Assembly: GCA_017308135.1 (NCBI GenBank)
Contig: JAFKFM010000011.1
Span: 186,001 to 250,000 of the forward strand
Source of the DNA: Alphaproteobacteria bacterium
GTDB taxonomy: Bacteria; Pseudomonadota; Alphaproteobacteria; CACIAM-22H2
DNA length: 64,000 nt
Direction of reading: 5' to 3'
The first letter of the stretch is position 1. Every line of letters starts with the position of its first letter. The notes beneath the pieces were generated by a model. The model was not told the origin of the DNA, ran no database searches, and worked only from the letters and a program-made list of their open reading frames with translations. Below are positions 55,542-56,069 of this stretch, in pieces. Both the position numbers and the translations under genes were made by a program.

Positions 55542-55868
55542 TTATTTCGTCTCGGTCTTGGACCGCTCGGCGCTGATGCGCGTTGCGACCCGGATCGCGT
55601 TTCTCATACCGGCGGCGGCGCCGAGCATGAGGAACACGAGCGTCAACCACGGCGAGGTGCCGAGCCAGCGATCCAGCACGAAGCCCATGCCCGTGCCGAC
55701 CGCCAGTGTCGCCAGCATCTCCACCGAGATGCGGAACCCCAGGCCCATCTGCCCCGTGCTGCGGCCGGCCGTGCGCGCCGATTTTTTATCGGCCTTCGAA
55801 CGGCGCGCTTGCAGCGCATCGACCTGCGCCTGGATCTCGTCGATGGCCCGCTGATCGCGGTCGTCCAT
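55542..55868 (-). CDS. atpI: ATP synthase protein I (AtpI)
   Basis: 108 residues. Acidic/basic N-terminus (DDRDQRAIDEIQAQVDALQARRSK) then GLGFRISVEMLATLAVGTGMGFVLDRWLGTSPW and LTLVFLMLGAAAGMRNA, two transmembrane helices as in AtpI, which helps c-ring assembly and Mg uptake. ATG at 55868 excludes a 38-residue extension that overlaps the promoter. First gene of atpIBEF'F. Confidence 0.85.
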   Translation of the reverse strand: MDDRDQRAIDEIQAQVDALQARRSKADKKSARTAGRSTGQMGLGFRISVEMLATLAVGTGMGFVLDRWLGTSPWLTLVFLMLGAAAGMRNAIRVATRISAERSKTETK

Positions 55869-55978
55869 GGCAAGCTCCAGACCCGGACCCTTCGCAAGCG
55901 CGAAGGGCACCCGGCAACTCGGGGAAAACGGTTGAAAAGACAGAAGAATCCGCCCTTTCACCCGGCTGACGCGCGCGG

Positions 55979-56007
55979 ACAATAGGGGCGGTGCCGCCCC
56001 CTGTCAA
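55979..56007 (-). promoter_or_regulatory. atp operon promoter with a perfect dyad in the spacer
   Basis: On the minus strand TTGACA (6 of 6, at 56002-56007) and TATTGT (4 of 6, at 55979-55984) are exactly 17 nt apart. The spacer consists almost entirely of a perfect dyad, GGGGCGG - TG - CCGCCCC (55985-56000). The predicted start is about 105 nt before the atpI ATG. Confidence 0.7.
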
Positions 56008-56017
56008 GGATCACGCT

Positions 56018-56069
56018 GACCGCCTAAGCCTTTGAAAGGGCGGATGTTTCCAGAGGCCCTTAGGCGGTC
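56018..56069. repeat. Inverted repeat spanning the smc stop codon
   Basis: GACCGCCTAAG and CTTAGGCGGTC, perfect 11-bp arms separated by 30 nt. One arm contains the last codons and stop of smc. It lies just upstream of the atp promoter and may be a terminator-like or insulating structure; no U tract follows on the minus strand. Confidence 0.5.

Follow-up and report, generated by a model that had tools for sequence, protein, structure and literature searches.

The window, a stretch of 64,000 nucleotides from an alphaproteobacterial contig, carries an F0 gene cluster downstream of smc, which runs in the same direction and ends at 56060. The first gene of the cluster encodes AtpI (Pfam ATPase_gene1, PF09527, 6.3e-18), its start codon being placed at 55868 by alignment with homologues, and is followed by the genes for AtpB and then AtpE. 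A TTGACA-to-TATTGT promoter begins 139 nt 5' of this start codon (Table 1). It was the only sigma70-like match that a promoter scan returned between 54500 and 57500 (shuffle mean 0.3, sd 0.6), with 10 of 12 consensus matches and a 17-bp spacer that falls within the 16-18 bp of sigma70 housekeeping promoters. The initial annotation had placed the two boxes with 17 nt between them at the right coordinates, although the letters that it quoted were those of the plus strand and the elements lie on the minus strand. Transcription probably starts at about 55972, directly after the CCGCGC discriminator.

Table 1. Elements of the promoter region upstream of atpI, in window coordinates
Feature	Position	Strand	Basis or remark
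-35 element TTGACA	56002..56007	-	promoter scan; identical in 10/11 genus genomes
Spacer, 17 nt, GGGGGCGGCACCGCCCC	55985..56001	-	contains 7-2-7 dyad at 55985-56000
-10 element TATTGT	55979..55984	-	promoter scan and genus pattern search
GC-rich discriminator CCGCGC	55973..55978	-	invariant in 10 aligned genus sequences
Leader hairpin, 12 bp	55933..55960	-	inside inferred 5' untranslated region; separate from spacer dyad
atpI, first gene of the F0 cluster (atpI-atpB-atpE-...)	55542..55868	-	Pfam and homologue alignment

The most conspicuous feature of this promoter is its spacer, which on the minus strand reads, from 56001 to 55985, as a single G, the arm GGGGCGG, the centre CA, and the arm CCGCCCC. 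It had been described as a perfect dyad filling the spacer. The 7-2-7 arms are indeed there; the symmetry, however, covers 16 nt of the 17, with an extra G left over beside TTGACA, and the centre (CA/TG) is not self-complementary. When the letters of the spacer are permuted as a whole, an arm of at least 7 arises in 3.1% of trials, and when they are permuted within each half, so that the left stays G-rich and the right C-rich, it arises in 28.5%. The dyad is thus unusual for a single sequence, yet near chance once composition is counted. Among near-consensus promoters across the genome, spacer arms of at least 5 occur at 4 of 29 sites, and the atp site, with 7, has the longest.

For a comparative view, upstream regions of atpI were gathered at 110 atpB loci (L009-L118) in two subsets that overlap in species: 30 loci from the genome itself and its relatives (an atpB match was found in 55 of 61 genomes) and 80 named loci kept from 225 relatives. 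Many loci of L009-L038 are apparently from the same species as L039-L054, and redundant entries were merged by sequence. By AtpB identity, the named genome records that come closest are those of a Proteobacteria MAG (99%) and of Tagaea sp. CACIAM 22H2 (98%). In the genus, the pattern TTGACA-N17-TATTGT-CCGCGC occurs exactly once per genome, upstream of atpI, in 10 of 11 genomes, while the reversed-pattern control gives 0 matches; the eleventh genome (G007, 84% complete), in which the pattern is missing, also has no atpB match. Across the Rhodospirillales, a promoter score of at least 11 is reached by 82 of the 97 distinct regions upstream of atpI but by only one of 970 mononucleotide shuffles and by none of 91 coding stretches, and at 11.5 or above there remain 70 upstream regions with no shuffle and no coding stretch. 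These picks were selected by score, which inflates the column counts of the -35 and -10 elements, and five of them are doubtful (L023, L025, L026, L113, and L116). A family-wide search for TTGACA-N17-TATNNT-NCGCGC found it in 13 of 23 genomes, belonging to two of seven genera; the remaining genera have different -10 or discriminator letters before atpI. The comparative evidence thus identifies the atp promoter as genuine, and the earlier assignment of these boxes to an atp promoter holds in the genus and more widely, with the core and the exact 17-nt spacing conserved before atpI. The CCGCGC discriminator is better conserved than the spacer. What these comparisons show to be conserved is the pair of boxes, their spacing, and the discriminator, while the sequence of the spacer varies.

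The dyad has a different distribution from that of the core. A regulatory role had been proposed for it, with alignment of relatives as the check and a lack of conservation among close relatives as one refuting outcome. In the 10 promoter-bearing genus genomes it is perfect in three (the own genome and two sister species, with the centres CA, GA, and TA), near-perfect in one (6 of 7 pairs in G010), and lost in six (1-3 of 7 pairs in G002-G006 and G008). This is the outcome named as refuting, and the regulatory reading of the dyad is not supported. The perfect match in three species says little because the two sister species are 94.7% and 95.6% identical to the own genome over the whole 3.7-kb locus. 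The spacers of these three differ only at one base of the dyad centre, which is C, G, or T, and the three are just as uniform in their discriminator, flanking promoter, and leader. At 4-5% divergence, about one change per 17 nt is expected; therefore, a single spacer change is roughly what drift alone would leave, and selection on the arms is hinted at solely by the position of that change in the centre.

The wider collection points to composition as the source of the symmetry. We compared 71 distinct 17-nt cores, leaving out nine loci with 16- or 18-nt spacer picks and L036, which lies too near the open reading frame to show 10 discriminator bases. Arms of at least 7 occur in three of these cores, all from the own and sister clade; column shuffles of the 71 give a mean of 0.18 such arms and reach three or more in 0.05% of trials, a comparison to be read with the three perfect dyads as one clade rather than as independent cases. 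The 67 distinct spacers that remain without this clade (L009-L012) show no excess of dyads, their longest arm being 4. Their arms average 2.78, where column shuffles average 2.94 and reach the observed mean in 94.6% of cases, and their pairs in the 7-2-7 register number 2.33 against 2.21 (17.4% of shuffles reaching the observed value). L103 comes closest to a dyad of independent origin, with a 6-bp arm and a 5-nt loop in an 18-nt spacer, and thus outside the 17-nt counts. Spacers from beyond the clade have 232 G and 136 C in their first eight positions, compared with 94 G and 279 C in their last eight. A spacer that begins with G and ends with C is already halfway to a dyad, and self-complementarity therefore arises easily. 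The dyad is limited to one clade and is probably a neutral product of spacer composition.

An alternative would make the dyad an operator of recent origin, at which a dimeric repressor bound between the -35 and -10 elements would block RNA polymerase in a small clade only. Its position is suitable, the retention of all 7 pairs by three species, and of 6 by a fourth, is in its favor, and the same genome offers a promoter-spacer palindrome next to a gene that we take to be MarR-like. Against it stand the absence of the dyad from six of the 10 promoter-bearing genus genomes, the lack of any regulator detectable by Pfam among the six neighboring proteins scanned, and the genome-wide distribution of the sequence. 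The exact 16-mer has two copies in the genome, the second of them within a 577-aa coding frame, and copies with at most two mismatches (12 + 8) are rarer than those of the reversed control (24 + 24). A scan of the genome for further copies had been proposed as another check, and it identified no second copy upstream of another gene, an absence to be read with the fact that a regulator with a single target would need none. Among the papers that searches of the open-licence literature on atp operons, ppGpp, and the stringent response listed, none describes a regulator of this promoter in its title or the opening of its abstract. We consider the repressor operator very unlikely. A more specific version, in which a small Tagaea-like clade would recently have turned its F0 promoter spacer into an operator for a dimeric regulator, keeping the arms and leaving the centre free, receives very little credence from us.

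The palindrome mentioned above belongs to L119 (G000:C7:51037-51065), a promoter-like site with the AT-rich sequence ATACTGATCATCAGTAT over its spacer and -10 element, located between two divergent genes. From their translations, we take these to encode a MarR-like protein and a divergent FAD-monooxygenase-like protein. A probable spacer operator with an adjacent regulator has this appearance, in contrast to the atp site.

The location of the dyad had also suggested the site of an activator of the MerR type, which would untwist an over-long spacer. Apart from the palindrome between the -35 and -10 elements, the atp promoter does not fit such a mechanism, as its spacer is exactly 17 bp and not 19-20 bp. 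Passages of one study describe MerR-family regulators as binding -35/-10 palindromes in promoters with 19-20-bp spacers (PMC1526738), and passages of another report almost no effect of MerR on mer promoter derivatives with 16-18-bp spacers (PMC11049809). The 17-bp spacer thus does not suit a MerR-type site (PMC1526738, PMC11049809), and we see practically no chance for this mechanism here. The 17-bp spacer of the atp promoter needs no help of the MerR type. The first of these studies mentions a CadR-type palindrome whose spacer is 17 bp long, and its authors think this palindrome either destroyed or restricted to repression (PMC1526738); a plain repressor therefore keeps a formal, though very small, probability.

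The dyad might instead act as a DNA or RNA structure, namely as a cruciform, as a transcription terminator for smc, or through the stiffness that it lends to the spacer. It is GC-rich and self-complementary, and the end of smc, which has the same orientation, lies shortly upstream; on the other hand, a T-run is absent after the dyad on both strands, a scan shows no terminator-like site there, the dyad is not conserved, and spacer composition could alter promoter strength without any dyad. We regard a structural role as highly improbable.

The leader downstream of the promoter presents a separate structure, a 12-bp hairpin that closely follows the presumed start. All nine rows of 45-nt leaders from the genus (six of them distinct) fold with z < -2.3, while over the whole collection folds with z < -2 are found for 11 of 68 leaders and 10 of 71 upstream control segments. 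The hairpin arms differ among the genus leaders, and two-sided changes keep the pairing at several positions, the pairing having been taken from each leader's own fold and hence being biased towards pairing. RNAalifold on a MAFFT alignment of the genus leaders found no covarying pairs and proposed a different structure; we attribute this to a failure of the alignment to hold the hairpin in register. The claim of a hairpin is weaker because it is based on separate folds. The hairpin possibly serves mRNA stabilisation or attenuation. Searches of seven loci with Rfam returned nothing at the gathering score except two tRNAs. Around the promoter, the sole Rfam match was to a human lncRNA family, below threshold and attributable to chance. 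Two further repeats lie nearby. A 13-nt inverted repeat, ATCCGCCCTTTCA (55948-55960 and 56033-56045), flanks the promoter with its copies 72 nt apart; it has no other exact copies in the genome, and the upstream one of the two differs in G009 and is absent from G010. An 11-bp perfect inverted repeat (56018-56028 and 56059-56069) overlaps the smc stop codon and is perhaps part of the 3' end of smc; it carries changes in G009 and was not seen in G010.

The discriminator connects the atp promoter with other genes of the genome. The pattern TTGA-N18..20-TANNNT-NCGCGC fits eight promoter-like sites of the genome, whereas its reversed control fits three. Half of the eight precede ribosomal protein genes, namely rplU (L21), rpmJ (L36), rpsD (S4), and rpmG (L33), and the others precede mnmG, pal, and atpI, with one lacking an assigned gene. 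L148-L155 form a candidate class of promoters with the CCGCGC discriminator, located before ribosomal protein genes, mnmG, pal, and atpI. The discriminator that the atp site has in common with the ribosomal protein sites suggests a growth-linked housekeeping promoter, perhaps controlled by ppGpp. Work on E. coli, as summarized in passages of a review, typically finds GC-rich discriminators in ppGpp-inhibited promoters, and the same review cautions that predictions are difficult (PMC9304144). The chances that ppGpp is the route of growth control, as extrapolation from the E. coli rules would have it, appear to us about evenly balanced.

Taken together, we consider it highly likely that the site is a sigma70-type housekeeping promoter of the F0 cluster, and that the dyad in its spacer is a by-product of composition and not an operator. 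RNA polymerase would recognize TTGACA and TATTGT, whose 17-bp separation is optimal, and would initiate after the discriminator, near the start position deduced above. The GC-rich discriminator probably shortens the life of the open complex and would thereby tie F0 synthesis to growth. The dyad, for its part, would have arisen in one small clade, from a tendency of the spacers of this promoter towards G at the start and C at the end. The site illustrates that the composition of a spacer can by itself produce a striking symmetry in a promoter; the information lies in the boxes and the discriminator. More generally, F0 synthesis in the Rhodospirillales may follow growth rate through the same promoter property as ribosome synthesis.

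These features may be set beside three known systems. With the sigma70 housekeeping promoters of Alphaproteobacteria, among which passages of one study describe the primary promoters of Magnetospirillum as sigma70-like (PMC9549626), the atp promoter shares a TTGACA-like -35 and a TATaaT-like -10 element; it differs from them in that its boxes and spacing are unusually constant across atpI genes. With the promoters of the MerR family it has in common the palindrome between the -35 and -10 elements, whereas here the dyad is not conserved and no regulator was found among the six neighboring proteins scanned. The third comparison is with the ppGpp-inhibited promoters of the rRNA and ribosomal protein type in E. 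coli: a GC-rich discriminator is common to both, and here it also occurs at sites before ribosomal protein genes, although the atp promoter drives F0 genes and its host is far from E. coli.
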